Shown here piece by piece: positions 11,137 through 58,732 of a DNA stretch of 64,000 nt. The notes below the pieces were generated by a model, which made no database searches, had not been told where the DNA came from, and saw only the letters and a program-made list of their open reading frames with translations. A program made the position numbers and the translations under genes. Location: assembly GCA_026391675.1 (NCBI GenBank), contig JAPLDQ010000046.1:62001-126000 (forward strand), written 5' to 3'. Source of the stretch: Bacteroidota bacterium. Lineage in GTDB: Bacteria; Bacteroidota; Bacteroidia; Bacteroidales; JACABE01. Position 1 is the first letter of the stretch. Each line of letters begins with the position of its first letter.

Positions 11137-11164
11137 GTATCAAGCGGAAAAGTCGGGGGCATAA

Positions 11165-11320
11165 TTAATCAGTGTAAAATTTGGCGATTTTGCGATTTCG
11201 TGATTTGGCGATTTACTTAAAATAGCACACATTACACAGATTTTACTGATAAACGCTGATAAAGTATTAAATTCCTTAACTCTAAGTACTCCAAGTACTT
11301 TAAGTACTCTAAGTACTTTT
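11165..11320 (-). repeat. Copy 1 of a mosaic dispersed intergenic repeat (minus orientation)
   Basis: Read on the minus strand it has AAGTACT-rich tandem units (four copies at 11281-11320), then a segment close to TGTGTGCTATTTTAA, then 8-bp units of AAATCGCC type (11178-11211). The same order is seen at 34606-34735 and 44359-44505 on the plus strand. No gene is seen here. Confidence 0.65.
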
Positions 11321-11369
11321 TTCACAACGAAGCCGGGAACTGTTCTTAAATCCTTTACCTTTGCTATAA

Positions 11370-12356: not shown

Positions 12357-12382
12357 TGAATTAAATACATTAGTTGAATTAA

Positions 12383-12898: not shown

Positions 12899-12937
12899 AA
12901 AAAGTCCGTCTCGCTAAAAGCGAGACGGACTTTTTAA
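12898..12937. terminator. Bidirectional terminator
   Basis: Perfect stem AAAGTCCGTCTCGCT / AGCGAGACGGACTTT with a 3-base loop, flanked by A-run and T-run. It lies between the convergent lipoprotein and M16 protease genes. Confidence 0.92.
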
Positions 12938-12960
12938 TACTATTATTCAAAAATAAGAAA

Positions 12961-34451: not shown

Positions 34452-34614
34452 AAATACTTTACTTCAAATCTATGCTTTTTAAATCCCTGCGCAATACAAG
34501 CCGTAGCGAAAATAACTTTATTCCATTTATGTTTACTATGAACTTCGCTATCTTCTGTATTGCTTGCGCAAGGCCACCGCTATTTAAAAAGCTTGATTTG
34601 TTGCGTAAAGTATT
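34452..34614. repeat. Long imperfect inverted repeat (MITE-like)
   Basis: The arms 34452-34511 and 34541-34614 are near complements: ATACTTTAC, GCTTTTTAAAT, TGCGCAA and TAGCGAA are all matched in inverted order. The centre is about 30 bp. No coding potential. It resembles a non-autonomous mobile or folding element, but no flanking target duplication was identified. Confidence 0.5.
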
Positions 34615-34790
34615 TGAGGACAGTCCATCTACGTAGAGATAACAGTACTTAAAGTACTCAATTACTTATCTGCGTTAATCATTAACAATCCGCGTCTTCT
34701 GTGTGCTATTTTAAATAAATCGCAAAATCAACGAATAGACATTTTTTCTACCAAATATTTCTCTCTTCTCAATTTTTTAGCTTAATCCAT
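34592..34790 (+). repeat. Copy 2 of the mosaic dispersed repeat
   Basis: Shares CTACGTAGAGATAACAG, the AATCATTAACAATCCG segment and GTGTGCTATTTTAAATAA in the same order with 44346-44505. Its right end (CATTTTTTCT...AGCTTAAT, to 34786) matches 38080-38130. Confidence 0.65.
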
Positions 34791-35435: not shown

Positions 35436-36224
35436 TTATTTTACCAATTGACCATCAACTTTAATATCACCTAATGGATAAAAAGGAAACATATTTTCTT
35501 CCATCCATTTGTTGGATTGAACAGGGGTCATTTTCCATCCGGAGTTACAATTTGAAACAATTTCAACAAATGTTAAGCCTTTGTTTTCTTTTTGTAAGTC
35601 AAATGCTTTGCGCAAGGCTTTTTTAGCTTTACGGACAGCTGAAGGGGTATGAACAGCCTGACGGGTTACAAAATGAACACCAGGTAACTGAGCTACAAGT
35701 TCTGTCATTCTTAATGGATTGCCCATAGTAGTAACATCTCTGCCGTAAGGGCATGTAGATGCTTTCATATTTGGCAGGGTTGTTGGTGCCATCTGACCAC
35801 CAGTCATCCCATAAATACCGTTATTAATAAATATTATAGTGATATTTTCGCCTCTGTTACAGGCGTGTATGGTTTCAGCGGTACCAATGGCTGCTAAATC
35901 GCCATCACCCTGATAGGTAAATACAATTTTTTCGGGCATTAATCTTTTTACTGCTGTAGCCAAAGCAGGAGCTCTGCCGTGTGCAGCCTGCTGCATATCG
36001 ATATTCATAAACTCATATGCTAATACTGAACATCCAACAGGAGCAATACCAATCGTAATTTCCTGAGCATTCAGTTCTTCAATAACTTCCATGAGGATTC
36101 TGTGTGCAGTACCATGACCACAACCCGGACAATAACTCAGCGCTTTGTCGGTTAACAATTTAGTTTTTGAATAAACTAAATTTTCAGGTCTTCTGATTTG
36201 TTCTTTTGTTACTATATCTGACAT
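35436..36224 (-). CDS. 2-oxoacid:ferredoxin oxidoreductase, beta (TPP-binding) subunit
   Basis: 262 residues. The thiamine diphosphate/Mg motif is GDGDLAAIGTAETIHACNRG ending with the expected Asn-Asn (IFINNGIYGMTGGQ). The Cys residues of CPGCGHG and GCSVLAYEF are in family positions. It supplies the catalytic TPP site of the complex. Its start lies 4 bp after the alpha subunit stop. Confidence 0.94.
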   Translation of the reverse strand: MSDIVTKEQIRRPENLVYSKTKLLTDKALSYCPGCGHGTAHRILMEVIEELNAQEITIGIAPVGCSVLAYEFMNIDMQQAAHGRAPALATAVKRLMPEKIVFTYQGDGDLAAIGTAETIHACNRGENITIIFINNGIYGMTGGQMAPTTLPNMKASTCPYGRDVTTMGNPLRMTELVAQLPGVHFVTRQAVHTPSAVRKAKKALRKAFDLQKENKGLTFVEIVSNCNSGWKMTPVQSNKWMEENMFPFYPLGDIKVDGQLVK

Positions 36225-36228
36225 CGTA

Positions 36229-37311
36229 TTAACCTCCTATTATTTGTTTTTCTAATGCAACAACCACTTCATCCGGAGTTGGAATAATTCCGCCAAAACG
36301 TCCAAAATGTTCAACCTTTACTTTGCATTCCACTGCTAATTTAACATCTTCTATCATCTGACCCAAGCTCATCTCAACAGTTAAAATTCCTTTTATTTTA
36401 CCAACATAGTTTAATAAAGGTTTTTTAGGGAAAGGGAAAAGTGTTATAGGACGTAATAAACCGACTTTAATACCTTTGGCTCTTGCCAGTTCTACAGCTT
36501 TCTGACTGATACGTGCACTTGAGCCATAAGCTACAATAAGGTATTCAGCATCTTCACATTGAAATTCTTCGTATCTGACTTCATTTTTTTCGATTTCCAG
36601 GTATTTGTCGCGAAGGTGTGCAACGTGTTTTTCCTGTTTATGAGAATCGAGGTCTAAAGATGTTATGATATTTCTTTCTCTGTTATTCAGTTTTCCCATT
36701 GTTGACCATGGTGTATTCCTGCGGATTTCCTCTTCGGTCCAACGTGGTTTAAATTCATCCAGTTCAACTTTTTCCATCATCTGACCAATTACACCATCGC
36801 CCAGAATTAAAACAGGGTTACGGTATTTAAAAGCCAGATCGAAACCTAAACCTGCAAAATCAGCCATTTCCTGAACTGAAGAAGGGGCCAGTACTATCAA
36901 TCTGTAATCGCCATGTCCGCCACCTTTGGTTGACTGGAAATAATCGGATTGTGAAGGTTGGATTGTACCTAAACCGGGACCTCCACGAACAATATTTACT
37001 ATTAAACAAGGCAATTCAGCACCTGCTATATACGATATTCCTTCCTGTTTCAAACTAATACCGGGACTTGATGAAGAAGTCATAACTTTTTTACCACAAC
37101 TTGCACCACCATAAACCATATTTATAGCAGCAACTTCACTTTCGGCCTGTAAAACAACCATACCTGTTGTTTTCTGTGGATCCTGATACATCAGATATTC
37201 CATGATTTCGGATTGCGGAGTAATCGGATATCCGAAATAGCCATCGCAACCTGCACGAATAGCAGCTTCTGCAACAGCCTCATTACCTTTCATTAATTTC
37301 AGTTCTTTCAT
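36229..37311 (-). CDS. vorB: 2-oxoacid:ferredoxin oxidoreductase, alpha subunit (VorB-type)
   Basis: 360 residues, the VorB/KorA subunit. N-terminal KLMKGNEAVAEAAIRAGCDG, the YPITPQSEIMEYL TPP-interacting segment, SSSSPGISLKQEG and RGGPGLGTIQPSQSDYF are family signatures. VorB names the 3-methyl-2-oxobutanoate (branched-chain) enzyme, but KorA of 2-oxoglutarate oxidoreductase is close, so the substrate is open. It lies 30 bp after the ferredoxin-like subunit and 4 bp before beta. Confidence 0.92.
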   Translation of the reverse strand: MKELKLMKGNEAVAEAAIRAGCDGYFGYPITPQSEIMEYLMYQDPQKTTGMVVLQAESEVAAINMVYGGASCGKKVMTSSSSPGISLKQEGISYIAGAELPCLIVNIVRGGPGLGTIQPSQSDYFQSTKGGGHGDYRLIVLAPSSVQEMADFAGLGFDLAFKYRNPVLILGDGVIGQMMEKVELDEFKPRWTEEEIRRNTPWSTMGKLNNRERNIITSLDLDSHKQEKHVAHLRDKYLEIEKNEVRYEEFQCEDAEYLIVAYGSSARISQKAVELARAKGIKVGLLRPITLFPFPKKPLLNYVGKIKGILTVEMSLGQMIEDVKLAVECKVKVEHFGRFGGIIPTPDEVVVALEKQIIGG

Positions 37312-37341
37312 CTGTTTGTATTTAAAACTGTTTAAACATCT

Positions 37342-37563
37342 TTAATTTTTCATTCTATAAACGGTGATAACACCATCGGGACATACAATTGCGCAGTTTG
37401 CGCAACCAGTACATTCTTCATTAACGGTCTCGGTATAATGATAGCCTTTTCCGTTTACATTTTTAGCCATTGCAATAACTTCCTGCGGACATGCAGCAAT
37501 GCAAACTTCGCAACCCTTACATTTTTCGATATCAATTACAATATCCCCTTTTACTTTTGCCAT
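37342..37563 (-). CDS. Ferredoxin-like delta subunit (two 4Fe-4S clusters)
   Basis: 73 residues with two complete cluster motifs, CKGCEVCIAACP and CTGCANCAIVCP. As first gene of the operon it is the electron-transfer subunit that takes electrons from the TPP site to external ferredoxin. It makes this a four-subunit form, as in Kor/Vor complexes of anaerobes. Confidence 0.95.
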   Translation of the reverse strand: MAKVKGDIVIDIEKCKGCEVCIAACPQEVIAMAKNVNGKGYHYTETVNEECTGCANCAIVCPDGVITVYRMKN

Positions 37564-38030
37564 TTTATATATGAATTAAGTAGAATATCTTATAAAATTA
37601 TGCCATTTTTTGATGGAGCGAAATTAGAGAAAATATCTGAATTATGATTTTTTTTATTCACTTTTTTGTATCTCAAGCGCTTAAATACTTATAAATTTTT
37701 GATTGTATGTTATTTAAAAAACAAAAAAGGGGCTGTCACAATTGGCGGCTTCTTCTTTTATTTTAAATTGTCTCTGCCCGGCAAAGTCTTATTCGTTAAG
37801 AATTACTCCGGCAGTTTTCACTTAATAATTTTGTACATTTATACTTATCAACTTTAAGATTTTCTCGCTGATTTCCGCAAAGTTTAACGCAGATTTACGC
37901 TGAAATGCCTGTTTTGTCATGCTGAACGCTAGTGAGGCATCTCATTTAAATTGTATTTTTATTATATTGAGATTCCTCTCTCGCTAAAAAGCGAGATCGG
38001 AATGACAAAACTACCGACATTACTTAATAT

Positions 38031-38078
38031 CACTAAATCGCTAAATCGCCAAATCGCCAAATCACCAAATCACCAAAT
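38031..38078 (+). repeat. Six tandem 8-bp units (CRCYAAAT)
   Basis: Units CACTAAAT, CGCTAAAT, CGCCAAAT twice, CACCAAAT twice, with no spacer. Related units occur at 11178-11211 (inverted) and about 44480-44500. Confidence 0.85.
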
Positions 38079-38164
38079 CGGCATTTTTTCTTCTGAATAT
38101 TTCTAACCTCAACTTTTCAGCTTAATTAAGTTGAACCGTTAAATATACTTGCCATGCCCCGCTC

Positions 38165-38309
38165 GGCGAAGTCTTGTGCGTTCAGCCAACGCGAGGGCAG
38201 ACTTCGTCGCTATATTAACTTCTCAATAAGTTATTAGTACACTGTCTATCGTTATAAAATCTGTTACACTGAGCTTTTCTGCATAATTTCTTGCACCTTC
38301 GCTGAGCTG
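38165..38309 (+). repeat. Left direct repeat flanking the restriction-modification island
   Basis: Aligned without gaps to 42981-43125 at a constant offset of 4816 bp; I count about nine mismatches over about 145 bp. It contains CTTCGTCGCTATATTAAC, GTTATTAGTACACTGTC and TTTCTGCATAATTTCTTGCA. Confidence 0.9.
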
Positions 38310-38390
38310 GTGAAACCGTTAACAACAATAGCATTTAAACAACCAAAATTTTTATAAAGTTGTTTTCCCCAAAATATTACTTAGAATTAC

Positions 38391-38398
38391 TAAATTTG
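38391..38398 (+). promoter_or_regulatory. -7 element (TAAATTTG) for the restriction-modification operon
   Basis: TAnnTTTG match 28 bp before the ATG at 38426; it lies just inside the left direct repeat. Confidence 0.5.
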
Positions 38399-38425
38399 TG
38401 ACTTTAAATCAAAAGATAAAGAAGA

Positions 38426-40582
38426 ATGAGTTTAATAGATGCAGGCATAGAAAAAGGGCTTATTAAGTTTGACGATGACAAGAACTTCATTACTTATATT
38501 CATCAAAATAAAAAACGTAGCTTTAATAATCCTGAAGAAAAAGTTCAGGCAGAAACTTTTTTGACACTTGTTTTGAATTATGGCTATCCTGTAAACAGAA
38601 TACTTCAATTTGTATCAGTACAAATGGGTTCTGAAACTAAAGAAGCTGACATCATTGTATATGCAGACGATGATTGTGAACAAACTTACATTTTAGTTGA
38701 ATGCAAAAAAGAAGAGATTACAGACCAACAATTTAAAATTGCAGTTGATCAAGCTTACAGTTATTGTGTTGCTGAAGGTGGAAAATACGTATGGACAACT
38801 TCAAAAATAATCAATGAGTATTACGAAGTTCCGAAAGAGAAACCGAGAAGTAGAATTGCTATTCCTGATATTCCGCAATATGGTGTAAACAAGTTAGCAC
38901 CATACAAATATGTGAAAGGCGGTTTTGTTCAATCGGAAGGCGAAACAGAAACCAATGTTGTAAAAGAACCGGACTTAAACGCAAAACAAAAGTTTTTTGA
39001 ACTTGAAATAGTTAGTGAAAACGAATTAACAAAAATTTTCATTCAAGCACATCAGGCGCTTTGGGGAGGTGGACAACGCAATCCCAGTGAAGCATTTGAC
39101 GAATTAGATAAATTAATCTTCTGTAAAATTTGGGATGAAAAACATGCAAGAATAGCAGGAGAACCATACGATTTCCAACTTTTTAGAGATGAAACGCCTG
39201 AAGAATTATTGGACAGAGTAAAAAAGATTTATGCTGTTGGAGAAAAAGAAGCTCCTGAAGTTTTTACAGATGGTATTAAACTTACTGCTCAAGAAACGTT
39301 AACAATTGTGAAATACTTTCAGCGTATAAACCTTAATAAAACAGACCTTGACAGCAAAGGAAAAGCATTTGAAACTTTTATGGGAAGTTTCTTCCGTGGT
39401 GATTTTGGGCAATATTTTACACCAAGACCAATAGTGAAATTTATAGTTGATTGTTTACCAATTACTCACAAATCTAGAGTATTAGATACAAGTTGTGGTA
39501 GTGGTGGATTTCTCTTACATGCTTTAGACAAAGTAAGAGAACAAGCAAATCAGTTTTATGATTTAAACAAAGATGCTGTCGAGCATAAAGCACACTGGCA
39601 TAACTTTGCGCAGAAGAATTTATTCGGAATAGAAATCAATAATCAAATTGCAAGAACCGCTAAAATGAATATGATTATTCACGATGATGGACACACCAAT
39701 GTTATTGCATCTGATGGTCTGTTGAGTGATACAGATATGCAAGCCAAATCAAAAAACAAAGAATTTGTTTATGGAAGTTTTGATTTTATCATTACCAATC
39801 CACCTTTTGGTAGCAGCATTAAGCAAAATGAAAAGGCATATATGCACCAGTACACTCTAGCAGTAAAAGAAGTGGACTGGCTAAATACAAACGCAAGCGG
39901 CAAAGCTGTGATGCGTGACAGCCAATCTACTGAAGTTTTGTTTTTGGAACAGTGCCATAAATTCTTGACAGAACATGGATATTTGGCAATTGTTGTTCCT
40001 GATGGAATTTTAACCAACAGCAGCTTGCAATATGTTAGAGATAACATTGAAGAAATGTATCGAATAGTTGCAGTTGTTTCAATGCCACAAACGGCCTTTA
40101 GTGCTACCGGAGCAGGGGTTAAAAGTTCAGTTTTGTTTGTACGTAAACACAAAGAGAAACAAAGTGAAAAAATCAGCAATCAAAAAGAAAAATTAAAAGA
40201 GCAAGTTAAAACCGACGGTAAATATATTGACACCATTTCAACATGGGAAAAGGAAAAAGCAACTGCAATAAAAACATTAGAAGAAGAAGCTAAAAAGAAT
40301 AATCCAAAGGCAAATAAAAAAGAAATTACAGAACTGATACAGGTTGACAAATCTGCTATTCAAACTGCATTTACCGACAAAGTGAATTTATTTAAAGAAG
40401 AATTAACTGAAAAATACTTTTATATAAAACAAATGGCTTTAGACGACTATCCTATTTTTATGGCAATTGCCGAAGATATAGGCTATGATGCCACAGGACG
40501 AAGCACAAACAACAATGAACTGACTGAAATAGGGAAAGAACTTACAAAGTTCATTGCTCATATTAACAAAACAGAGAAGTAA
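38426..40582 (+). CDS. Fused nuclease / N6-adenine DNA methyltransferase (type I- or IIB-like)
   Basis: 718 residues. The N-terminus (about 40-130) is an HsdR-N-like PD-(D/E)xK nuclease domain: Asp75 in KEADIIVY and Glu92-Cys-Lys94 in LVECKK, with Gln109 in a following helix. From about 310 it is an HsdM-type methyltransferase: QYFTPRPIVKFIVD, SAM-binding DTSCGSGGF (about 354), and catalytic NPPFG (about 457). A coiled-coil C-terminus (about 570-660) can pair with HsdS. No helicase/translocase motifs are present. Nuclease-methyltransferase plus separate specificity subunit is the architecture of BcgI-type (IIB) enzymes rather than classical HsdRMS. First gene of a three-gene operon within direct repeats. 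Confidence 0.88.
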   Translation: MSLIDAGIEKGLIKFDDDKNFITYIHQNKKRSFNNPEEKVQAETFLTLVLNYGYPVNRILQFVSVQMGSETKEADIIVYADDDCEQTYILVECKKEEITDQQFKIAVDQAYSYCVAEGGKYVWTTSKIINEYYEVPKEKPRSRIAIPDIPQYGVNKLAPYKYVKGGFVQSEGETETNVVKEPDLNAKQKFFELEIVSENELTKIFIQAHQALWGGGQRNPSEAFDELDKLIFCKIWDEKHARIAGEPYDFQLFRDETPEELLDRVKKIYAVGEKEAPEVFTDGIKLTAQETLTIVKYFQRINLNKTDLDSKGKAFETFMGSFFRGDFGQYFTPRPIVKFIVDCLPITHKSRVLDTSCGSGGFLLHALDKVREQANQFYDLNKDAVEHKAHWHNFAQKNLFGIEINNQIARTAKMNMIIHDDGHTNVIASDGLLSDTDMQAKSKNKEFVYGSFDFIITNPPFGSSIKQNEKAYMHQYTLAVKEVDWLNTNASGKAVMRDSQSTEVLFLEQCHKFLTEHGYLAIVVPDGILTNSSLQYVRDNIEEMYRIVAVVSMPQTAFSATGAGVKSSVLFVRKHKEKQSEKISNQKEKLKEQVKTDGKYIDTISTWEKEKATAIKTLEEEAKKNNPKANKKEITELIQVDKSAIQTAFTDKVNLFKEELTEKYFYIKQMALDDYPIFMAIAEDIGYDATGRSTNNNELTEIGKELTKFIAHINKTEK

Positions 40583-40638
40583 TTGATCAGATAAATCGGA
40601 AATTCCGATTTATCTGTTTGAACAAATAAACTGAAAAA

Positions 40639-41499
40639 ATGAAACAACAAAATGCCATTCAACTTTTTGAAGATAAAAAGGTAAGAACGCTGTGGAATGA
40701 AGAACAAGAGAAATGGTATATATCTATTATTGATGTAATTGAAATATTAACCAACAGCGATAGACCAAGGAAATATTGGAGTGATTTGAAAGCCAAACTA
40801 AAAAAAGAAGGTAGTGAGTTGTCCGAAAAAATCGGACAACTGAAAATGCAATCGGCAGATGGTAAATTTTATCTGACTGATGTTGCCGACACAGAACAAC
40901 TTTTTAGGCTTATTCAGTCCATTCCTTCGCCTAAAGCTGAACCTTTTAAACTTTGGTTAGCACAATTAGCTTCAGAACGTTTAGACGAAATGCAAGACCC
41001 CGAATTAACTATTGACAGGGCTTTAGCGCAATATTTACAATTAGGCTATTCAGAAAACTGGATTAACCAACGCATCAAAAGCATCGAAATACGAAAAGAA
41101 TTAACCGATGAATGGAAAAAAAGAGGATTAAAAGAAGGACAGCAATTTGCAAGTCTTACCGATATTATTACCAAAGCTTGGGCAGGGAAGACTACTAAAG
41201 AATATAAAATACTGAAAGGCTTAAAAAAAGAAAACCTGCGCGACAATATGACCAATACCGAACTCATATTGAATATGCTAGCCGAAGCTTCTACCAAAGA
41301 CATTTCGCAAGCCGTAAAACCTAAAGACTTTGAAGCCAGTAAAAAAGTTGCAAAACAGGGTGGTAATGTAGCAAAGGTAGCTATGATAGAACTCGAAGCC
41401 AAAACAGGGAGAAAAGTAGTTAGCCCATTAAATGCAAAATCAATTTTACCCGAAAATAATACTGCTAAAAAACTTAACCCCAAAAAGCCTAAAAAGTAA
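40639..41499 (+). CDS. BRO-N / DinD-like protein inside the restriction-modification operon
   Basis: 286 residues. The N-terminal 110 residues look like a BRO-N (phage antirepressor-type) DNA-binding domain (FEDKKVRTLWNEEQEKWYIS; KYWSDLKAKLKKEG). The C-terminal half contains a KGLKKENLRDNMTNTELILN segment that resembles the conserved C-terminal part of E. coli DinD, a RecA-inhibiting SOS protein. The tail is Lys-rich. It overlaps the hsdS start by one base (TAATG) and lies 56 bp after the nuclease-methyltransferase gene. Such genes are often found between hsdM and hsdS; the role may be control or anti-recombination, which is inference. Confidence 0.72.
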   Translation: MKQQNAIQLFEDKKVRTLWNEEQEKWYISIIDVIEILTNSDRPRKYWSDLKAKLKKEGSELSEKIGQLKMQSADGKFYLTDVADTEQLFRLIQSIPSPKAEPFKLWLAQLASERLDEMQDPELTIDRALAQYLQLGYSENWINQRIKSIEIRKELTDEWKKRGLKEGQQFASLTDIITKAWAGKTTKEYKILKGLKKENLRDNMTNTELILNMLAEASTKDISQAVKPKDFEASKKVAKQGGNVAKVAMIELEAKTGRKVVSPLNAKSILPENNTAKKLNPKKPKK

Positions 41500-42962
41500 T
41501 GAGCAGTTATACAATTTCAAATTCACTCAATCCTCAACGGATTTTTATTTTGCAAAAAAGCGAATTGGAAAAACGCCTTGATCCATTCTTTTATATTCCT
41601 GAATTATTAGAACTTGAAAAGAAGATATTAACCAAGAAGCCTAAGAAATTAAGAGATTACGTTGTAAGTATTTCAAGCGGAGCAACACCAAAGACGACCG
41701 AAAGCGAATTGTATTATGCAGAAAAAGAAAATGGCATACCGTTTTTAAGAGTTCAAAATCTTTCGCCAACCGGTGTTTTGGAATTTGACGACTGCAAATA
41801 CATAAACCATAAAACACATAACGGAATGTTGAAACGAAGTCAGGTTTCAGCAGGAGATTTATTGGTAAAAATTACAGGCGTTGGGCGAATGGCAGTTGCT
41901 TCCGTTGCACCTGATGGATTTATCGGTAATATCAATCAACACGTTTGTGTGATCAAAACAGGAAGCAAAGAAATTAGTGAAACACTTGCAGCCTTTCTAA
42001 ATTCTGACATTGGCGAAAAATTAGCAAGCCGAAGAAGTACCGGTGGAACAAGACCAGCATTAGATTATCCTGCATTGCTTTCTATTCCAATTATTCAAGA
42101 TAAACGGATTCTACAAATCACGAATAAAGTAATTGAACAAAAACAAAAAAATGAAGCAGAAGCAGAAAAAATATTAGCTAGCATTGATAATATCTTAATG
42201 AAAGAGTTAGGCATAACCTTACCTATCCAACCCGAGAATATTATAAAAAACAGAATTTTTATTTCTACCTATAAACAATTATCTGGAAATAGATATGACC
42301 CTTTTTATTATAAAAGTTATTTTGTTGAATTAGAAAATTGCATAAATAAAAGTAAATATAAATTGATAAAACTTTCATCAGTTTGTGATTTACAAAATGG
42401 CTATGCTTTTAAAAGTTCTGACTATACAGAATTTTCCGAAACACTTAATGTTCGAATGAGCAATATCAGACCAAATAATGTATTTGACCCAGACTACAAT
42501 CCACGATATTTACCAAATGAATATGCAGAAACCTACAAAGATTTTTTGCTTATTGATGGAGATGTAATTATTGCAATGACTGATATGGCTGGAGACCCTA
42601 AAATACTTGGTGTTCCAACTATTATTTCAAATTCAAATGACAGAAAATTATTGCTAAACCAAAGAGTGGGTAAACTATTTGACTTTAATACAAGCATAAT
42701 AAATATAGGTTATTTAAAAGAAATTCTTGGTGCAAGAATGGTAAAAGAATATTACAATAAAATGGGTGCAAGGGGTGTTCAAATTAATATTAGCAGTGAG
42801 CAAATATTATCTGCAAGAATTCCAGTTCCACCGCTTGACAAACAAAGTGAAATTGTAAAACACATTACAGATATACGACAACAAGCCCAGCAGCTTAAAG
42901 ACAAAACGAAAAAACTCCTGAAAAAAGCGAGTGATGAAATTGAAGAAATTCTTTTAAACTAA
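41499..42962 (+). CDS. hsdS: Restriction-modification specificity subunit HsdS
   Basis: 487 residues with two target-recognition domains. TRD1 is about 45-200 (LRDYVVSISSGATPK, GIPFLRVQNLSP, STGGTRPALDYPALL); a conserved helix follows (about 205-245). TRD2 is about 285-450 (KLSSVCDLQNGYAFKSSDY, ARGVQINISSEQI, PVPPLDKQSEI) with a C-terminal coiled coil. Two TRDs predict an asymmetric bipartite recognition site. It guides the fused nuclease-methyltransferase upstream. It ends 18 bp before the right flanking direct repeat. Confidence 0.92.
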   Translation: MSSYTISNSLNPQRIFILQKSELEKRLDPFFYIPELLELEKKILTKKPKKLRDYVVSISSGATPKTTESELYYAEKENGIPFLRVQNLSPTGVLEFDDCKYINHKTHNGMLKRSQVSAGDLLVKITGVGRMAVASVAPDGFIGNINQHVCVIKTGSKEISETLAAFLNSDIGEKLASRRSTGGTRPALDYPALLSIPIIQDKRILQITNKVIEQKQKNEAEAEKILASIDNILMKELGITLPIQPENIIKNRIFISTYKQLSGNRYDPFYYKSYFVELENCINKSKYKLIKLSSVCDLQNGYAFKSSDYTEFSETLNVRMSNIRPNNVFDPDYNPRYLPNEYAETYKDFLLIDGDVIIAMTDMAGDPKILGVPTIISNSNDRKLLLNQRVGKLFDFNTSIINIGYLKEILGARMVKEYYNKMGARGVQINISSEQILSARIPVPPLDKQSEIVKHITDIRQQAQQLKDKTKKLLKKASDEIEEILLN

Positions 42963-42980
42963 ACAATATGTTACCCGCCC

Positions 42981-43125
42981 GGTGAAGTATTGTGCGGTTA
43001 GCCAAAGCGAGGGCAGACTTCGTCGCTATATTAACTTCTCAATAAGTTATTAGTACACTGTCTATCGTTATAATATCTTTTACACTAAGCTTTTCTGCAT
43101 AATTTCTTGCATCTTCGCTGAGCTT
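42981..43125 (+). repeat. Right direct repeat flanking the restriction-modification island
   Basis: Gap-free match to 38165-38309 with about nine differences. See the left repeat. It starts right after hsdS. Confidence 0.9.
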
Positions 43126-43134
43126 GGGACATAC

Positions 43135-43164
43135 AAAAAAAGGCTGTCTCAAATTTGACAGCCT
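43135..43164 (-). terminator. Terminator of the DUF6261 gene
   Basis: AGGCTGTC/GACAGCCT stem with an 8-base loop; on the minus strand it is followed by a run of seven Ts. Similar stems (GGCTGTC/GACAGCC) occur at 58684-58706. Confidence 0.85.
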
Positions 43165-43176
43165 CCTTCTTTTATT

Positions 43177-43914
43177 TTATACTTTCTCTGTTACAAACGC
43201 AGCATCGTCTTTCGCACTTTTAGCTTTACGTTTAGCGATTATTTCTTTCGAATTTACAATGCGGTGGTTCATTTCTGTTACAAAATCTTTGTATTGACTT
43301 TCGCCATTTACCAAAATCAAAGCATTGATTAAGTTTATTATTTCCTGATATTGTTTATCTATTTCGATACGGACCTGTTTCATACGAAGCGTGGTTTTTG
43401 CAGATTCTTCGTTGTAACGTTCGTTCTTTATATTTTCAAATTTGAGGTTGCCGGCTTTAAGTTCTTCAACCCAATCGGTAATAGCCAGTAAATTAATTTC
43501 AGCAGCATGGTTTTCATTCAATTCTTTATACAATGAATTGATTTTTGCAGTTTCTTCATTATATGCTTCAGAAGTAAGATTTCCATAAGTATCAAAAATA
43601 ATCATCAGTTTTTTAGCGGCTTCGGCTTTTGCCGGAACAAAATGATTACAGGCTGCTTTCACAGTATCGCACAAGCCGCGGAAAATCTGATCGCGATGTG
43701 AATCGGCATTGACCAATGCATCAGTCTGAGAATTTTTAGTGATATATACCAACGCTTCGCTTTCTTCGGTATATTTTGACAGATAGTTTTGAAACCGGGC
43801 ATCAATACCCAGTGCCAGGGCTGTAGATTTTTCTACCAGATTTTTAAATTCGGTCTGAAACTGATAATGTTCAGCGTTGCGAAGACTTACTAAATGGATG
43901 TTGTTGATTTTCAT
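43177..43914 (-). CDS. DUF6261 family protein
   Basis: 245 residues, no signal peptide or membrane segment; almost entirely helical and charged. The N-terminus (INNIHLVSLRNAEHYQF) and the HRDQIFRGLCDTVKAACNHF segment match the DUF6261 family as I recall it. This family is frequent and often multi-copy in Bacteroidota and has no known activity. It is a single transcription unit between the restriction-modification island and a repeat-rich region. Confidence 0.8.
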   Translation of the reverse strand: MKINNIHLVSLRNAEHYQFQTEFKNLVEKSTALALGIDARFQNYLSKYTEESEALVYITKNSQTDALVNADSHRDQIFRGLCDTVKAACNHFVPAKAEAAKKLMIIFDTYGNLTSEAYNEETAKINSLYKELNENHAAEINLLAITDWVEELKAGNLKFENIKNERYNEESAKTTLRMKQVRIEIDKQYQEIINLINALILVNGESQYKDFVTEMNHRIVNSKEIIAKRKAKSAKDDAAFVTEKV

Positions 43915-43980
43915 AATTTCTAAGTATTAAATTATTTATTTGAGATTTGATAGTCCTAGTTATCCGCTTTTAATTAATAA

Positions 43981-44064
43981 AGTGAGAATCTTTCACCGTG
44001 CCCTCGTTGGACCGTTCTCATTAGTGAGAATCATTCACCGTGCCCTCGTTGGAATGTTCTCAAT
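43981..44064 (+). repeat. 42-bp tandem repeat, two copies
   Basis: Units at 43981-44022 and 44023-44064 differ at about four positions. Each starts with GTGAGAATC and ends with GTTCTCA, so each carries a GAGAA/TTCTC inverted end; the centre is CACCGTGCCCTCGTTGG. A degenerate third start follows (TTAGAATCCATGCC). Confidence 0.88.
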
Positions 44065-44200
44065 AATTAGAATCCATGCCTGAGCACTAATTTAATGATT
44101 CACATTAATGAAACTGCCTGCCTGAGTCCTCGATCTGCTATTTGCTTTAATATATAGCATTGTAATAAAATTATGTTCCAAAAATATATAAATAAATAAC

Positions 44201-44234
44201 AACAAAAAATACCTTAATTAAGGTATTTTTTGTT
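44201..44234. terminator. 34-bp perfect palindrome, terminator-like
   Basis: AACAAAAAATACCTTAA and its exact complement with no loop. Runs of A and T at its ends allow it to terminate transcription on either strand, but no gene ends near it on the plus strand and the DUF6261 gene starts 287 bp away in the other direction. Confidence 0.55.
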
Positions 44235-44345
44235 AAATAATAGGAGGTGTATTTAAAGTTATGAGTTATAAATTATGAATTATAAGTTATTGTTACTGAA
44301 TCAAATTTCCGGTTTCCAAATTCCTTATTCCTAATTGATACTATT

Positions 44346-44505
44346 TGATTTGTAACATAAAGTATTTGAGGGCAGTCCGGCTACGTAGAGATAACAGTTC
44401 ATAGAGTAGAATTGAAGTACTCAATCACTTATCTGTGATAATCATTAACAATCCGTGTCATCAGTGTGCTATTTTAAATAATTCACCAAATCGCAAAATT
44501 ACAAA
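44346..44505 (+). repeat. Copy 3 of the mosaic dispersed repeat
   Basis: Aligned with 34592-34735: GTATTTGAGG, CTACGTAGAGATAACAG, TAATCATTAACAATCCG and GTGTGCTATTTTAAATAA occur in order, followed by AAATCGC-type units. A 16-bp insertion separates the AGATAACAG and AAGTACT parts. Confidence 0.7.
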
Positions 44506-44552
44506 ATTAAAGAATCGTCACATTCCCCATGTTTTCTGCCTGATCCATTAAG

Positions 44553-45326
44553 CTACAATCCATTTTCAACAGCAAATGCTGCAAGAGAAGCCATACTGTG
44601 TAATTCTAATTTTCTGGAAATATTTTTGCGATGTGTGTCAACCGTGTGAAAGCTGATATTTAAATGTTGGGCAATTTCTTTTGATTTTTTCCCTTTTGAA
44701 ATAAATTGCAAAACTTCTTTTTCTCTTTTTGTCAGAGACTCTAAAACCAATTTGTTTTTTAATTTGGCATTTTCTTTCACCATCTCTTCCATCTGGCTAA
44801 TGGTTTTTAAATCCGACGAAAGATCTATAGCAATTCCCAGAATTAACTTATTCGGGATTTCATTATCTTCTGAGAAAACTGTAGATTTGCTATAACTCCA
44901 TTGCCATTGAAGCGCTCCTTCGGGCTTTATTCTATAAACCCTCGAAAATTCAGTAATCTTATTTTCATTGTAAGCATTAATACTTTCCTTAATATGCGCT
45001 ATATCTTCGGGGCAATAATGGCTCAAATACCAATCAATACCTTTTTCATTTATTTCCTGAATAGATGCTCCCATCCTTTTTTCAGCAAGTTCATTGCCCC
45101 ATATATGCTTTATATTTTTATAATCATTAATATAAACAGCAACAGGAAGGCTATCAATTATTTTTCCCAGCAGTTCTATTTTTTGTTTCAGTAAATCAAT
45201 ACATTCAACAGTATTGCGTTGGTCAACATCGGTATAGTTAGCATTCAACAAACTATCAAGTTCTTCGACAAGCATAAATTTTCCCATAAAAGTTTTAGCA
45301 GTTAACAATGCATCACAAGCATGCAT
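44553..45326 (-). CDS. PAS domain LuxR-family transcriptional regulator
   Basis: 257 residues. N-terminal helices (1-50), a PAS-like sensory domain (about 52-175, IIDSLPVAVYINDYKNIKHI to KLILGIAIDLS), a short coiled coil, then a LuxR helix-turn-helix at about 198-245 (LTKREKEVLQFISKGKKSKEIAQHLNISFHTVDTHRKNI, quoted in part: HLNISFHTVDTHRKNI). It is a one-component regulator without a phosphoacceptor domain. Its gene is directly downstream of the giant surface-protein gene in position, with 177 bp between and the same direction, and may regulate it, but no evidence in sequence proves this. Confidence 0.88.
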   Translation of the reverse strand: MHACDALLTAKTFMGKFMLVEELDSLLNANYTDVDQRNTVECIDLLKQKIELLGKIIDSLPVAVYINDYKNIKHIWGNELAEKRMGASIQEINEKGIDWYLSHYCPEDIAHIKESINAYNENKITEFSRVYRIKPEGALQWQWSYSKSTVFSEDNEIPNKLILGIAIDLSSDLKTISQMEEMVKENAKLKNKLVLESLTKREKEVLQFISKGKKSKEIAQHLNISFHTVDTHRKNISRKLELHSMASLAAFAVENGL

Positions 45327-45449
45327 TAAGATTCATAATTTTTAGGGCGCTAAGCTAAAAAAAATTTAAGAATTATCTACTGTCTCAAAAAAATATTTAA
45401 TCAAATTGCAATTTTACACCGTCAAATATACTCGCCATGCCCGGCACAC

Positions 45450-45486
45450 AAAAAAAGAGGGCTAATATCAGATAGTAGCCCTCTTT
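45450..45486 (-). terminator. Terminator of the first giant surface-protein gene
   Basis: Stem GAGGGCTA/TAGCCCTC with an 11-base loop, then seven Ts on the minus strand. Just right of it the sequence AAATATACTCGCCATGCCC (45424-45442) repeats 38141-38159. Confidence 0.85.
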
Positions 45487-45503
45487 CCATTTTATAACAG
45501 ATT

Positions 45504-48500
45504 TTATTTATTAACAACCATCTTCTTAACCAGACGTTTGTCTTTAAACTCTACAGTATAATAATAAATACCGGCAGCCAAATCCTTTACATTCAGATTA
45601 ATCAGGTGTTTACCGGCTGAAGCATAATTTTCAGTTTCATAAACTTTCTGTCCGAAAAGATTCATTACAACAAACCTGATATCCCCTGCTGATGGCAAAT
45701 TATATTCAATATTTGTTGCACCAGCTGTTGGATTAGGTATATTCTGACCCAGCCATAAACTGTTGGCATCGTATTCATCAACTCCAATAATTCCTATTGA
45801 TATTGAAGATACAGTACCCGAACAAACAGTTCCTACTCCGTTTACTGATAAACTGGCTGAACTGAATGTAGGACTAAACGTAACTGATATTGAAGTTCCT
45901 GATCCAGTTATTGTACCGGCTGATGCTGGTGTTAATACCCAATTATAGGAAATTGCATTTGAAATAGTTGGAACAGTATAAGTTTGGGTTGAACCCGGAG
46001 TTACAATAACAGGACCGGTTATAGTACCAGCTGCAGCCACACTACAAATAGGTATTGATTTTGAAATGGTGTCATTAAACGGATATGCATCATTTGGCAA
46101 TTGTGTCCATGACATGAAAGAAACAGATGTACCAATTGGTATTATCAATTGTTGTGTAAATGAATAATCTGTAGAATCACCTGCCAGCAATGTTCCTGTC
46201 CAGGTTTCGCCAACAGGAATCTGAGCTCCACGTTGATAATACACAGGTATTGAAGTCTGTGTGAGAGTTCCATAGTTTCTGATCCGTACTTTAATAGTTA
46301 CAGAAGAATTTTGACTCACATATCCACTTGGCTGAACAAGTAGTGTAACACCAACATCTTTTTGTGCCGGATTAACGGTTACAGTTTTGCAGTACTTATC
46401 ATTCTGTAAATAAATATCACCAAATATTTCTGTATAAGCACAAATACTGTAATTTACATTGGCCACCTGATAAGGTTGTGTAAACGTATAGTTTGCTGAA
46501 GCACCTGGTGCCAATGGTCCCGGATAAGTTCCGGTAACAATAGCTCCTGTTCCAACCTGATATCTGACAGGAACATTGGTTAAAGCAGCTGTACCAAAGT
46601 TTTTAATATTAACCGTTACAGGAACTAAATCCCCAACCAGTGATATTGATGCAGGTGAAACAATTGAAGTTACACCTCCATCCTGAGCAATCGGTACCAG
46701 GGTTAATTCAAAATCATCAATTGCCCATCCGTTATTAACATTAGCTGCATCTGATGAGAATACAAACCTGAATTGAATGGTATTTCCCATAGTAGGTAAA
46801 TTATACACCCTGTATTTGGATTGTTTCCAGCCTGCACCGGTACCCGTCCACATATTGGCAGTAGTACTGTTATACCAATAGGTTGCATTGGTATCTACAG
46901 GTGTTATTTGACCCATTGTTGTCCAGGTTGAACCACCATTATCTGAATATTCAATACGTCCGCCGTCTTTATTTAACTCTGCATCTACCCAATGCCAGAA
47001 CTTCAATGTATCTGCCCTGAATACGGTATTGTCAAATATTGGAGTATACAAATAACTGGTATTACTATTGGTATAATTTCCATTTAATTTGGTAGCCCAT
47101 ACATTTGGTGCACTGTGTGCAGCATTGATAACCGATGCCGTTGGTACACCTTTTTCCCATAAGCTTCCGTTTTCAACAGAGAACCATTCGTTTGTAGTAT
47201 TATCGAAGTTTTCAGAATATGGTACACCTTTAATATATTCACCAAAATAATTCATTTTTAATGTATCATTTAAATGATTTCCATCATTGGTTAAATCGGT
47301 GTATACCTTAATTTCAAATGGACCAGCTGTAACAGGCATTTGTGTTGTAAATGTAACGGTATCAGCCTTATTGGAAAGCAAATAAGCAGGGTAAGTTTGA
47401 ACAACTGCTGCTGCATTGCCCGCTTTAAAGACAACATTGAAATTACCTACACTATCAGCTCCATAATTTTTAATCAGACATTTAATCTGAATATTTCCTC
47501 CAGTCTGTGAATAAGGAATAACCGGTGAAAGTATGGCCCTTGTTGTTAAATCGTATTGTAATGGACTGTATTCATCAGCACCAATGTCAGGTGTAGTGGC
47601 ACTTCTTGCTTGTCCGTCAATATCATCTGTAACTTCAGCTACCGGCATACCGAGATTATTCAGCATCGGCAGGTAAAGATGCAGATCAAAAGCAGAAATA
47701 TACATTGGATCCAGCGAAACAGAATTGGTATCCTTACCGCTCATGGTTTTCCATGCAGCTAAATTTGCAGCTGCTCCGGCCCAGTAACCCAATGTTGCTC
47801 CTGTAGTATAGAAATTATTATAATTACTTGCGCTGATAGAAGTTGCAACTGATGAATAAATGGCATAGCCGCCTCCATAATTTACAACATTATTATTCCG
47901 CAGGATATTGTTGGATCCATAATACATGTAAATACTGTAATAGGTTGCACCACCCAGGGTATTGATAGAATTGTTATAGAATTTATCATTATTGGTATAG
48001 TAATGATAGACTCCATATACTGTTGCACTTGCAGATTGAGTAATAAAGTTATTGGCTACAAGGCCACTGCCACTGCTACTGTTATTATAGTAAATGTACA
48101 TTGCATAGGTAGTTCCTGTATTATCCAGTAAGATCTTATTCTTCTGATAATTCATATTATCACAATAATAGGAATAGAAACCATATACTGTTGCTGAAGC
48201 TGCACTGTTACGGATAGTATTCCCAATTGCAGTTACACTGTCCTGATAATACAGATATAATCCATAATAATAGAAATCTTTAATAACATTATTAAGAATC
48301 ATATTCCCTTTTTCTTTGGATGATGTGCTCACACCATAGAAATAGACACCATAATAACCGCCCGAAATTACATTATTGGCAATAATATTCTTTTCGTCAA
48401 TGGTATTATAGGAATAAACAGGACAAGACGTAGATGTTGTAGAAAGAGCTGTCTGAATAATGTTATTTGAAAACTCATTGTAACTTGCACCGTTGGCCAG

Positions 48501-51500
48501 TTCTACAACTCTGCCTAAACCTGCAGTACTGTTGGTAAAGCTCATGTATTTGAATTTAATGTAATCAGCAGCATTCAATTTTACAACATAATTAGCAGTT
48601 GAAGATGTTGGATTATAGTTGACAATAACAGCTGTACTATCATTTGTTAAAGATTTAAATGTAATAGTATTTACTGCAGAAGCACCGGGAATTGCAGGAA
48701 TTAACAATTGTTCGTTATATGTTCCTGACTGGATATTAAATGTTACCGGTGCAGAAACACCGCAGTATGTTAATACCTGAATTGCATTGTTTATCGTCTG
48801 GAAATTTGAACCGGTACCAGGACCAATTGTATAATTACCGGATAAAGGTCCAGAACACGCAATAATAGTTGTATACATGGTATCGTTCATGTTAAGCTGA
48901 TCAGCAACACCATTGGGTAAACTTGTCCACACTTTGAAGTTTGCAGCACCTGCAGTAAAATTATAGTTTCCGATTACAACAGTATCAAGGCTACCGGAAG
49001 CTATATTATTAGACCATGCATAATTGGGTTGAGTTACGCCATTTACACTCCATCTGATTGATGCAGAAGTCAGATTTAATACTCCATAGTTCTTAATGGA
49101 GACTTTAACCGGCTGAATACCTGTAGTCGTAGGATTTGTTGGTAAAATAACTGCAACAGCACCTGCATCATTATTAGGCAAAACAAATTCATCAGCACCT
49201 ATGTCAGGTATTGTAGTGTTCCTTAGGGTTCCGTCAATATCATCAGGTACTGATGATAATGGTGTTGCTTTTCCGTCCAAATCAAAGTTTACAAGATGCA
49301 AATCGCTGACTGAGAAGAAATTTGGATTTACAGAAAGTGAATTATTATCTTTTGTACTGGCTGTTTTTAATGCAGCTAAATTTGCACAAGCTGCTCCCCA
49401 ATAAGCAAGTGTTGTACCATTTGTATAGAAATCATTGTAATTACTTATGTTGATGCTGGTAGCAACTGAAACATAATAAGCATAGCCTGTACCGGTATTG
49501 GAGAAAATATTATTTACAACATTATTACCTGTACCATAATACATATAACAAGAATAATATGAAGAAGAACCACCTGTTACATTTACAGAATTATTGTAAT
49601 AATTCATATTATTTGAATAATAGCTATAAATGCCATAAACAGCAGTACCAATGGATTGTGAAACAAAATTATTGGCAACCAGACTGCTTCCTGATACACT
49701 ATTGTTGTAATACATATACATACAATAATTGGTACCTGTACCGGTTGCAATTATTTTATTTTTAGTAAATATACTGTTACTGTTATAATATGAATATAAT
49801 CCGTAAACTGTTGCAGATGTAGATGCGTTCATTACCGTATTACCCGATACTGTCAATGTATCCTGATAACCCGGATAAATTCCATAGTAATAAAAGTCCT
49901 TAAAGGTATTGCCGATAATTTTGTTTCGCTTCTGCAAACTTGTTGTAGAGGATCCATATAAATAAATACCATAACCACCATTCAGGAATAAATTGTTTAT
50001 AAAGCTATTATCGTCGATTCCTGCTCCACTGGCATATATCAGTTCATAATTAGTTGTTGTTGTTGTTGGGATTCCTTCTATTCTACAATTAGAAATTTCA
50101 TTATGGTTGGCTCCATTGGCCAATTCCATAATACGGCTCCAGGTATTACTACCGGAAACAGATAAGGTCATTTTATTGAATTTATAATAACTACCTCCTA
50201 TAAATTTCATTGCCCAGGCTGCTGAACCGAGGGTATAATGTAATACTACCTTGGTACTGTCGCCACTGGCTGAAGTAAAGGTAATGGTTGAATTCGGACC
50301 TGCTCCGGCAATAGGATAAATGAAAAGCCTTTCATTGTATACTCCGGAATCAACCAGGAATACAACATTACCACAAACGCCTACACTATCCAGTGCATTT
50401 AATGCAGCTGTGAAATTAGGGAAGTTTTTACCCACACCAATGGTAAAGGTACCTGTTAAACAACCCATAACACTTTTCTTGGTGGTATCATTCAAAGGAT
50501 ACATATCGGCTTGTGCATTTGGTAATGATGACCAGGCTTTGATGGTACTTAAGCCACTGGCAAATGTATAACTGCCCAGGGTAATTGTTGAAGTAGACTG
50601 TCCGCTTGTTAATGTACCGCTCCATGGCACGCTGGTTTGTACCAAACCATTTACAGACCAGTTAAGAATGGCTGATGTTACTGTAGAAGATCCCCAGTTT
50701 GTTAATTTAACCTTTACAGGGGTTAACGCTCCGGTTACCACAGTATTCAATGGTTCCGGTATAGCAGTTACAGCAATATCCAGAGCAGGTATACCGGTAA
50801 CGATAACAGTTACAGGTGCCTTTGGACTTGTACAACCGACAGCAGTATTAAATACCTGAATTTCTCTGAAATTAGGATTGGAAGCTCCTGCAATAGTATT
50901 AAATCTCAATTTTGTTGCAGTAACAGGCGGGAAAATAACACTATCATCAATTACAGCACTGTTATAATTATAAAAACTAACATATGCCGAACCATTCCAG
51001 TATTCAAATGTACAGGTTGTCATTGGACGGTTATCTTTAAAGAATTTAACCATGGTAAATGTTTTGGGTGTAGTCCAGGTATATTCAATCCAGCCATTGG
51101 TAGTTACCCAACCCCAGAGATATGTTCCTGTAGTACCATAAACAGGTATATTACCATCATTATACAATTCAGGACCATAGCCTGATGCAGATGCACCACC
51201 GCCTGAATGTGTGGATACTGCCAATAATCCTATATTGGTTCCTGTGCCTGATGAAGATGAAGCATTTACATAATAAGTAGTTGTATCATATAAATTAGGT
51301 GTGGTAAACTGAGAACCTGAAGCAAGAGGAATAGTATCAGCAGCATTGGCAAACCAGTAAATTGAATCATTGGATGGATAGTTAAATGTAGCTGTACTTC
51401 CATAAGCAATGGTCTGGGTAGCTAAAATTGGAGTTGGAGGAGTATATTTTGATTTAACGACTCTTGTTGTTGTATCATTATTAATATTTAAATCACCTAT

Positions 51501-54500
51501 CAGATTGGTCCATGCAATCAGGGTATAATTTGAGTCAGCACTAACTGTTGGTAGTGAAACAGGAGTAGCAAATGTGAATAATGTAGAGTCTCCGCCATTA
51601 ATATTCAATGCAACGGCTTCACTTACAACATTAACAATGTTATTATTCTGTTTGATACCATAATAAGCAGTAAGTGAATTCTGGCTGCTCAGGATAGCCA
51701 GATTACCTCTGTTCTTAATTTTTATCTGTACAGACTGATTCATTAGTCCACAACCATCATTTGGTGATAAAATTTTTGTAACAGTTGCATCTCTTCCGGG
51801 AGATACATTAACTTTTATAGGTACTTTGGCACTATAACAACCTCCACTACCAGTACCCCAGCTAACATTCCAGTGATAGAAGAAGTAAAAATAAGGAGCA
51901 AGAGAAGTACCGGTTATACTTAATACGTTAGGAATAGTATATGGATAGGTACCCGTTAAATCGCGGTATAAATTGGTTACACCACCGGTCCATGAATTAA
52001 TCCCTAAACGGTAACTCGTACCTGCTGTAACTGGGAAATTCAAAACACATGTTTGAGCAGGACTTAGTGGTGAAGTAGTACCAGTTACATTAAATGTTTG
52101 AGACATAATAGGTGTACCTGTTGATGTTCTTAATTCGATGGTAACTGTTCCAGCACCTGTACCATATGGGAAAATGTCAACTGATTTAACTATACAATTT
52201 GAAATTGCATCAAAATTAACATAAGTAGTTAAGCCCCCACCTGTACCTGCCGTTGATAAAGGAGCAACTTCGCCAACATAAGCTGAACTGCCGGCTGAAT
52301 GTCCTGCAGCAACCCAATAGGTAGTTGTATCGGTTAGTAATGGTGTAGTATAGGATGGCCCGGTAGCAAATGCTGCTGTATCGGTTAAATGAGCAAACCA
52401 GTTCACAGTATCTGATGATATTGCTGTTAATGTAGTGCTATTACCAAAAATAATATTTACAGGTGAATTGACAACAGGAGCTGGAGGAGTAAAGACAGAT
52501 TTTACAGTTTTTGTCAAGCTGTCATTGGATGGATAAGGGTCATTCTGTAAATTAACCCAACTGATCAATTTATAGCTAGAATCAGGAACTGCAGCAGGCA
52601 TATTAAGTGGTGTTGTGAATGTAAACAATTTATTTTGAGCTGGCAGGATAGTATCTGTAACTTGCTGTGAAACGATATTTACCAGTGTATTGGCAGATGT
52701 TTTCAATGCATAATAAGCCATCAGCGTGTTTTGTCCGCCGTAAATGGTATCCTGACCGGCATCCAGTATTTTTATGGAAACAATTTCATTGGATAAATTA
52801 CAGCCAGTATTAGGTGTAACAATCTGAACTACAGATGCATCTTTATGTGCCGGCGGAGCGAGTGTAGCCTGTATCATAAACCTGCCAAACTGGGTAGTTT
52901 CTGTAAGGTTGCTAAGACCTCCCGTCATTGTTGTAGTATAATAAAAAGCTCCCCTTCGGGTCGGAACTTCCTTCTGACAACCCAATGGATAGTAACCACT
53001 GCTTCCTACAGTTTGTGCAAACCCGACATAAACAAAATTATTTACCGTTGAACTTGCTGAAGGATTAAGCATATTGAAAGTTACCCAAGAATTGGTATCA
53101 CTTGCAGTAATTATTTTACTGTAGGATGTATCAATCAAAACCCCATTCGAGTTGAGAATAACAGCATATAAGCGCTGTCCGATAGTATTTGAATTGGTTA
53201 TATAGGCACCTACTTTGGATATTAATTTAGAACCGTTGATGAAATATTTAGCTAAAAATAAACCGGAGCCCGTATTAAAGCCTAAGTATGTATTTGGTGC
53301 AGTAGTATCAGCATAAGCATATATACTATCAGTTATTTCCTGACGGTAATTGAGTACATTATCAGCCATATTGCTATCCAAAGGAATTGAAATTTTTACA
53401 TTATTTAAACCGAGGGTTGCCGGGGTAAAATTGTCAAAACTAATAGTATCTTCAGCACCTGGTGTTAAAGTTGTGGTTTTTACATTTGTAAATGTATTGG
53501 CTCCGGTGATATTCAGGGTTACATTCAGATTGGTCAGTGTATTGGCACCAACATTTCTGATAATCGATTTTACCTGATGTGGTGCACCGCCGTTTAGCGG
53601 AAGTTTACCAAAAGTATATAATGATTTAAGTTTGGCATCATAGGGCAAAACAATAAATTCATCCGCACCAATACAAGGTAATGCCGGTCTTGTTTGTCCG
53701 TCAATATCATCTGTAACGCCTGCAACAGTTGTTCCTTTGGCAAATAATGCTACATTATCGGTATGTAAATCGTTGATACCAAAGAACATTGGATCGGTTG
53801 AAATTGAGTTCTGATCTTTACCACTTAAGGTTTTTAATGCGGCTAAGTTAGCACAGGCTGAACCCCAGTATGCATAATTTGCACCGGTACTATAGATGTT
53901 ATTATAATTGGAAATATTTACATAAGTTGCAGATGAAACATAGTAAGCGTAGCCTCCACCGGTATTGATAAAGTTATTATTTACAAAATTATTTCCGGTT
54001 CCGCTTGAAACATAACAGGCATAAGATGAAGTTGACCCGTTTTTAACATTTATACTGTTGTTGTAATAATTCATATTATTGGAACCAACATTATAAATTG
54101 CATATACTCCTCCTGTTCCCACTGACTGGCTGACAAAGTTATTAGCAACAAGAGTCGGTGCAGCTGTAGTAGTGTTTGTAGAAAAATACATGATATAATT
54201 GGTAGATGAACTGCTGATCCTGAAATCATTTTTTACATAGGTTCCACCTTCACTATAATAGGAATACATTGCATATACAACGCCTGAAGTTGTGGCATTC
54301 TGAATAATATTACCTTTAACTGTAATACCATCCATATAATATAAATACATTCCATAATAGTAAAAATCCTTAATAACATTATTTTGGATAATATTTCCTG
54401 TTTCTCTGGATGTTGTGCTTACACCATACATATAAATGCCATAATAACCTCCAATGATCTGGTTATTTTTAATAGTAAGATAATTTTCAAGTGAGGCATT

Positions 54501-58709: not shown

Positions 58710-58732
58710 TATAATTTAAAATCTGTTTATTT

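Follow-up and report, generated by a model that had tools for sequence, protein, structure and literature searches.

It has long been asked how restriction systems that encode no recombinase move, and the question is raised in concrete form by a locus in a 64,000-nucleotide stretch from a Bacteroidota bacterium (assembly GCA_026391675.1, contig JAPLDQ010000046.1, forward-strand positions 62,001 to 126,000; this whole stretch is called the window, and positions are counted from its first letter). Here, three genes on the same strand and nothing else, encoding a fused nuclease-methyltransferase subunit (RM), a BRO-N domain protein, and a specificity subunit (S), lie between two direct repeats, R1 and R2. 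How did the operon come to be bracketed in this way? The answer towards which we lean is that the island is a mobile type IIB cassette that inserted with a target duplication of about 100 bp, or by an equivalent single crossover at a resident repeat. Three observations carry it: the exact bracketing of the three genes, the absence of RM from all four other genomes of the family, and the recurrence of flanking repeats at the cassettes of relatives.

A restriction operon between direct repeats

R1 and R2, which align without a gap at 92% identity and a spacing of 4,816 bp, are the longest direct repeat within positions 36000-46000. The first-pass annotation of this DNA had described ungapped repeats at 38165-38309 and 42981-43125, at the same offset, with the whole restriction-modification operon alone between them and no transposase or integrase inside. 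All of this was borne out: the repeats extend to 156 nt, with 10 of the mismatches inside the span first given, and Pfam finds no transposase or integrase among the three cassette genes. Both copies are intergenic; R1 ends 112 bp before the first cassette gene, and R2 starts 11 bp after the last cassette stop codon. The mismatches between the copies are unevenly placed, with 6 in nucleotides 1-33, then an identical run of 67 nt, then 6 in the final 56 nt, and when 12 mismatches were placed at random, a run of that length arose in 1.1% of 20,000 permutations (p 0.011). This unevenness is compatible with crossover or conversion between two diverged copies, and an identical run of 67 bp is sufficient for RecA-type exchange. 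The annotation's further idea of a recombination-driven locus holds up in part, in that the repeats are long enough and a similar arrangement is present at 5 of 68 relatives, as set out below; no excised circle was found, and neither excision nor amplification was seen.

The background rate of such pairs was gauged in 464 kb of the same genome (the window plus 20 stretches of 20 kb, or 11% of 4.04 Mb), with frames of at least 100 aa taken as coding and pairs of at least 60 bp counted at E ≤ 1e-6. The sample holds 46 intergenic repeat pairs, 8 of them at 85% identity or more and 5 at 90% or more. Four of these five are direct and within one stretch. Besides R1/R2, they comprise two pairs in near-tandem and a further one whose copies, 1.4 kb apart, sit in the 3′ ends of genes presumably for secreted proteins. 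Since the other three are near-tandem or 1.4 kb apart, R1/R2 is the sole such pair in the sample with a spacing above 2 kb. At wider distance, the island is also enclosed by a second, weaker direct repeat (34593-34729 and 44345-44492; 148 bp, 81%), which has inverted partial copies at 11187-11262; dispersed repeats are thus not rare in this region.

The feature positions are collected in Table 1. S is a separate subunit with two target-recognition domains, the N-terminal half being matched by PADLOC profiles and not by Pfam. In RM, residues D75, E92, K94, D354-G358, and N458-F461 are invariant in nine sequences including the window's, and we take them to be those of a PD-(D/E)XK-type nuclease, with its ExK pair, and of an NPPF motif. 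A profile of the nine sequences finds one solved relative at E ≤ 1e-20, RM.BsaXI (positions 19-703 of 721, E 1.6e-50); in the alignment of the two proteins the ExK pair and NPPF coincide, and the D preceding ExK is shifted by two positions. As PMC3874165 describes them, BcgI-like enzymes pair an RM subunit with an S subunit, and the cleavage domain of RM houses a single catalytic site. Given the RM and S domains, the RM.BsaXI match, and this subunit make-up, the cassette classifies by sequence as a type IIB restriction system of the BcgI/BsaXI kind. It is like BcgI and BsaXI in its fused nuclease-methyltransferase, in its separate specificity subunit, and in the RM.BsaXI match over most of its length; it differs in that its operon holds an additional BRO-N gene and in that it is a predicted system.

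Table 1. Positions in the window of the repeats, the cassette genes, and the hairpins
Feature	Position	Strand	Basis or detail
Direct repeat R1 (left)	38158..38313	+	156 nt
Hairpin module of R1, dispersed-family member	38158..38226	+	Covariance model
RM, fused subunit, 718 aa: N-terminal HSDR_N_2 nuclease plus N6 adenine methyltransferase	38426..40582	+	Pfam PF13588, PF02384; nearest solved structure RM.BsaXI
BRO-N domain gene, 286 aa, between RM and S; PADLOC candidate PDC-S13	40639..41499	+	Pfam PF02498; PDLC04920, E 2.1e-134
S, specificity subunit (HsdS-like), 487 aa	41499..42962	+	Pfam PF01420 on 285-473; PADLOC specificity profiles, both halves
Direct repeat R2 (right)	42974..43129	+	156 nt, 12 mismatches versus R1
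Hairpin module of R2, same family as R1 module	42974..43042	+	Covariance model
Terminator-like hairpin (AGGCTGTC..GACAGCCT) between R2 and the opposing DUF6261 gene	43141..43164	.	Fold only

The hairpin module of the repeat

The repeat is not private to the cassette, since the initial ~68 nt are a hairpin whose family is dispersed over the genome in nine or more further copies. A DNA search of the genome with the 145-nt query gave five places and one with the 156-nt query eight, the extra matches being to the left part only. A covariance model built from eight copies found at least 11 copies, 3 of them beyond the model-building set; of the 334 candidates, 150 were scored, which makes this number a lower bound. 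For the right ~90 nt, the sole matches with a meaningful score are R1 and R2 themselves. Other members of the family carry different right-hand parts, and the full repeat has two copies in the genome. The first-pass annotation had held that occurrence of the repeat at unrelated loci without a cassette would tell against its proposal. In part this is the case. What is found elsewhere is the left part, at the nine or more other places, and tblastn detects no relative of the cassette genes in the stretches examined around 10 of the hairpin loci (E ≤ 1e-3); the full repeat occurs as R1 and R2 only. In the congeners, the hairpin model gives one weak match in G001 and no match in G002 or G003.

Given that the left portion is found dispersed through the genome, the pair could also have arisen by two insertions independent of each other. 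R1 and R2 would then be separate insertions of a small non-autonomous hairpin element, akin to miniature inverted-repeat transposable elements (MITEs) or repetitive extragenic palindromes (REPs), unconnected with the arrival of the cassette, and we regard this as rather unlikely. The copy number of the module fits such an account, as does a member of the family of ~146 bp that is paired at 90% identity on contigs C19 and C27, but the right 90 nt of the repeat are present at just the two sites that flank the operon. The words near the ends of R1, GCTCGGCGAAG (38161-38171) and CTTCGCTGAGC (38297-38307), are inverted repeats, and a direct repeat of 11-12 nt (TGAACCGTTAA / TGAAACCGTTAA) flanks R1 at short distance; however, no clear or consistent target duplication was seen by eye at R2 or at the other hairpin copies. 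IS200-like (Y1) transposases are matched at five loci of the genome, in one case by a frame with stops, but none of the five loci carries the hairpin within the ~1.5 kb examined on each side, and a Y1 transposase was rejected as mobiliser on the same count. Moreover, separate insertions leave the flanking repeats at other cassettes unexplained. As to kind, the module is like REP/MITE-type elements in being short, intergenic, and multicopy with variable right-hand parts, and unlike them in having no linked Y1 transposase and no consistent target duplications.

It is improbable that the repeats function in transcription or in stabilizing RNA, acting as hairpin terminators for example, and bracket the operon as a by-product of their intergenic placement. 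Each copy lies in an intergenic region and opens with a hairpin, and the further hairpin copies also lie between genes, but Rfam gives no match in 36000-45500, a terminator need be neither 156 nt long nor 92% identical over its non-hairpin part, and repeat pairs of this type are rare in the 464-kb sample. More improbable still is the swap hotspot proposed in the first-pass annotation, with different defense cassettes exchanged between two repeat copies by homologous recombination: the repeat length and the 67-bp identical run would suffice for exchange, but swapping was not seen, the repeat is in none of the 58 other genomes searched at the DNA level (E ≤ 0.001), so that no other cassette is known between its copies, RM is absent from the four other family genomes, and what is seen to vary among relatives is internal to the operon, namely the gene that separates RM from S.

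Flanking repeats at the cassettes of relatives

Relatives of the cassette comprised 80 loci from a contig scan (the best 80 of 431) and 10 from another search, which with the window made 91. Nine in which S was undetectable (L053, L057, L080, L082, L083, L095, L112, L115, and L118) and three duplicates (L047, L048, and L075) were dropped, leaving 79 distinct loci, and removal of 10 further loci with less than 250 bp of flank left 69 usable ones, the window and 68 relatives. At each, 700 bp of sequence ahead of RM was matched against an equal length following S, and 179 intervals bounded by other open reading frames (ORFs) in the same loci served as controls. Direct repeats at the cassette edges with a score of at least 17 were found in 5 of the 68 relatives versus 1 of the 179 controls (Fisher p 0.0067); at a score of at least 19 the counts were 5/68 versus 0/179 (p 0.0014), and at 25 or more, 3/68 versus 0/179 (p 0.020). 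The window scored 126, followed by L062 (80.5), L051 (50.5), L108 (27), L046 (21), and L056 (19). An earlier version of the test (72 loci, duplicates included) returned the same top six, with scores of at least 17 in 3 of 330 random windows and 0 of 856 mismatched flank pairs. A looser count over all 91 loci (at least 40 bp, at least 85%, spaced 2-9 kb) gave 15 pairs, 11 of them spanning RM; several, as in L058, L070, and L099, lie kilobases away from the cassette.

The anatomy of two of these loci is informative. In L062, an intact 1,586-aa gene stands to the left, and its final 98 bp recur, with 91 identical positions, as the right repeat, which begins at the S stop codon. In L108, an intact trhP-like gene stands to the right, and its opening 57 bp recur, with 45 identical positions, as the left repeat. 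Since both copy the ends of intact neighbor genes, this is the pattern expected if a target is duplicated and the gene in it is spared. The L051 repeat covers the surroundings of two adjacent start positions. In L045, the S-RM operon and one further ORF are enclosed by a perfect palindromic repeat of 44 bp; this repeat is beyond the tested distance and is uncounted. The repeats differ in sequence from locus to locus, apart from one 20-nt match between L046 and L056 (E 0.001), and the window's hairpin model has no match in L045, L046, L056, L062, L065, L066, or L108 and a single insignificant one in L051 (E 0.11), away from its repeats. As the repeat differs from site to site, it would be the cassette and not the repeat that carries the property, should type IIB cassettes of this family be mobile without an integrase and enter chromosomes time and again through recombination at short repeats already resident there (hairpins, gene ends), with the target gene preserved and a long direct repeat remaining at either side; this generalization we consider doubtful and put forward tentatively.

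Some relatives have features of their own. Palindromic GCCAACGC elements were seen by eye at the cassette ends of several. L046 has palindromic elements at both ends of its cassette, with a tyrosine recombinase gene upstream (6071-7330; NF040815 above cut-off, integron-integrase TIGR02249 below cut-off) and a group II intron maturase fragment downstream (11491-11943), a setting that is possibly integron-like. In L057, three repeats of ~350-427 bp cover a frame, and by eye one of them cuts the start of the S gene; the frame has no Pfam match, and we take it to resemble a transposase remnant. The L057 cassette relative (2883-15600) also adjoins a Cas9-like gene with RuvC_III and HNH_4 domains, and what are presumably cas1 and cas2 are nearby.

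Within the operon, the slot between RM and S varies across loci, as judged from the differing frames that it holds. The gap between the two genes exceeds 250 bp in 27 of the 79 distinct loci, and 24 of these 27 have a further frame of at least 80 aa. BRO-N proteins occupy the slot in the window, L044, L065, and L103, and a RhuM cluster (tested in L058 and L062), a Fic protein (L084), and a Schlafen-type protein (L130) are found there in others. A frame of ~153 aa, forming one cluster, is present in L060, L065, L067, and L069, and is an IS200-like transposase (Y1_Tnp by Pfam) in L060 and L067, where it was tested. Nine proteins of ~490 aa also form one cluster, with no family assigned (L050, L097, L098, L119, L121, L122, L132, L133, and L134); a weak DndB-like match below cut-off was obtained for L050, and none for L097 or L048.

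Proposed entry of the cassette and its spread

Were the island the product of insertion, the cassette of RM, BRO-N, and S would have entered an intergenic site that held a ~150-bp resident sequence, part of the hairpin family, and one copy of that sequence would have been left on each side; target duplication and single crossover would both yield the order repeat-cassette-repeat. The two copies would then permit RecA-dependent loss or tandem amplification of the whole unit. We infer the insertion event and its route, as well as any such later excision or amplification. The mechanism is not new: insertion of restriction-modification (R-M) systems with a long, variable target duplication was reportedly described by Nobusato et al. 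in 2000 and Furuta et al. in 2010, as citing papers relate. According to the pertinent passage of PMC3874152, some R-M systems insert with long, variable target duplications of the order of 100 bp. In a portion of PMC3031569, an R-M complex between direct insertion sequence repeats is expected to amplify by unequal crossing-over and is likened to a long target duplication, and a Helicobacter pylori example of R-M insertion with target duplication appears in a section of PMC1643837. The window fits this class by its anatomy, being a complete, recombinase-less R-M unit between direct repeats that is absent from relatives. It differs from the class in that its duplicated sequence includes a dispersed hairpin, in that an empty site was not observed, and in that its type IIB system includes a BRO-N gene and comes from a lineage of Bacteroidota, probably of Bacteroidales.

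RM occurs once in its own genome and, at E ≤ 1e-100, in 11 of 295 sampled genomes of the order, its own included. On the right side of the island, the order of regulator and DUF6261 gene is retained in the congener G002 (LuxR-type gene 48% over 198 aa; DUF6261 65%), where no cassette, no hairpin match, and no recognizable repeat follows the LuxR-type/DUF6261 pair. Immediately upstream of the window's DUF6261 gene is a tandem pair of 42-nt units (90%) containing CCGTGCCCTCGTTGG (43981-44064). Positions 45504-58394 encode a repetitive protein of 4,296 aa, of secreted type, whose gene is matched over 4.3 kb at 81% by the next gene (58731-64000), which extends past the end of the window into L175.

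Several observations weigh against insertion of a mobile cassette. Synteny is broken on the left, where the genes upstream of the left neighbor korA differ in all three congeners, and with different genes in each, an empty site is unreadable on that side. The three congeners revealed no empty site that holds one copy of the repeat, and the searches for empty sites of two relatives yielded nothing usable (the best match to the epimerase neighbor of L056 reached 54% identity in 393 genomes; the neighbor gene of L062 was found in 0/395 at E ≤ 1e-80). The hairpin module has spread through the genome without regard to the cassette, and the ~146-bp C19/C27 pair of its family lies on two contigs without one. 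Edge repeats are lacking in 63 of the 68 relatives, and among the five that have them, L046 and L056 have the lowest scores and bear palindromic elements, L108 has a further 162-aa frame within its repeats, and the left gene of L062 ends in a type IX secretion system (T9SS) sorting domain, an end of the sort that can be repeated naturally. Nor is the composition foreign: the GC content of the cassette (32.0-35.5%, versus 35.0-36.1% in the flanks) and its third-position GC content (22.3-29.3%, versus 25.8-32.1% in neighboring genes) are slightly below the surroundings, with no strong contrast. Finally, the RM tree, made by a quick method, is strongly clustered by phylum, with 20 label changes for 14 phyla, where the minimum is 13 and shuffled labels give 35.3.

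Being far more clustered than the shuffles, the tree indicates that transfer between phyla is occasional and not rampant, and label changes by themselves do not prove such transfer. Contigs with RM homologues of 75-79% identity are those labelled Nitrospirae, Deltaproteobacteria, Anaerolineales, and Leptospiraceae, bins that may be contaminated. Candidate vehicles were also tried and rejected: no phage record was found at E ≤ 1e-60, and a single plasmid record at E ≤ 1e-100 covers 53% of the protein. An integron/attC reading of the window was set aside as well, there being no recombinase, no matching inverted ends in the elements (by eye), and no Rfam hit reaching the gathering score, either in 36000-45500 or in the eight loci of relatives that were scanned.

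In any case, a restriction cassette bracketed by repeats is a pattern already described for other restriction systems, found again here in a few relatives, and it is most likely the footprint of entry. For this family, the window locus, together with L062 and L108, provides concrete type IIB junctions at which the gain and loss of repeat-flanked cassettes by homologous recombination can be tested.
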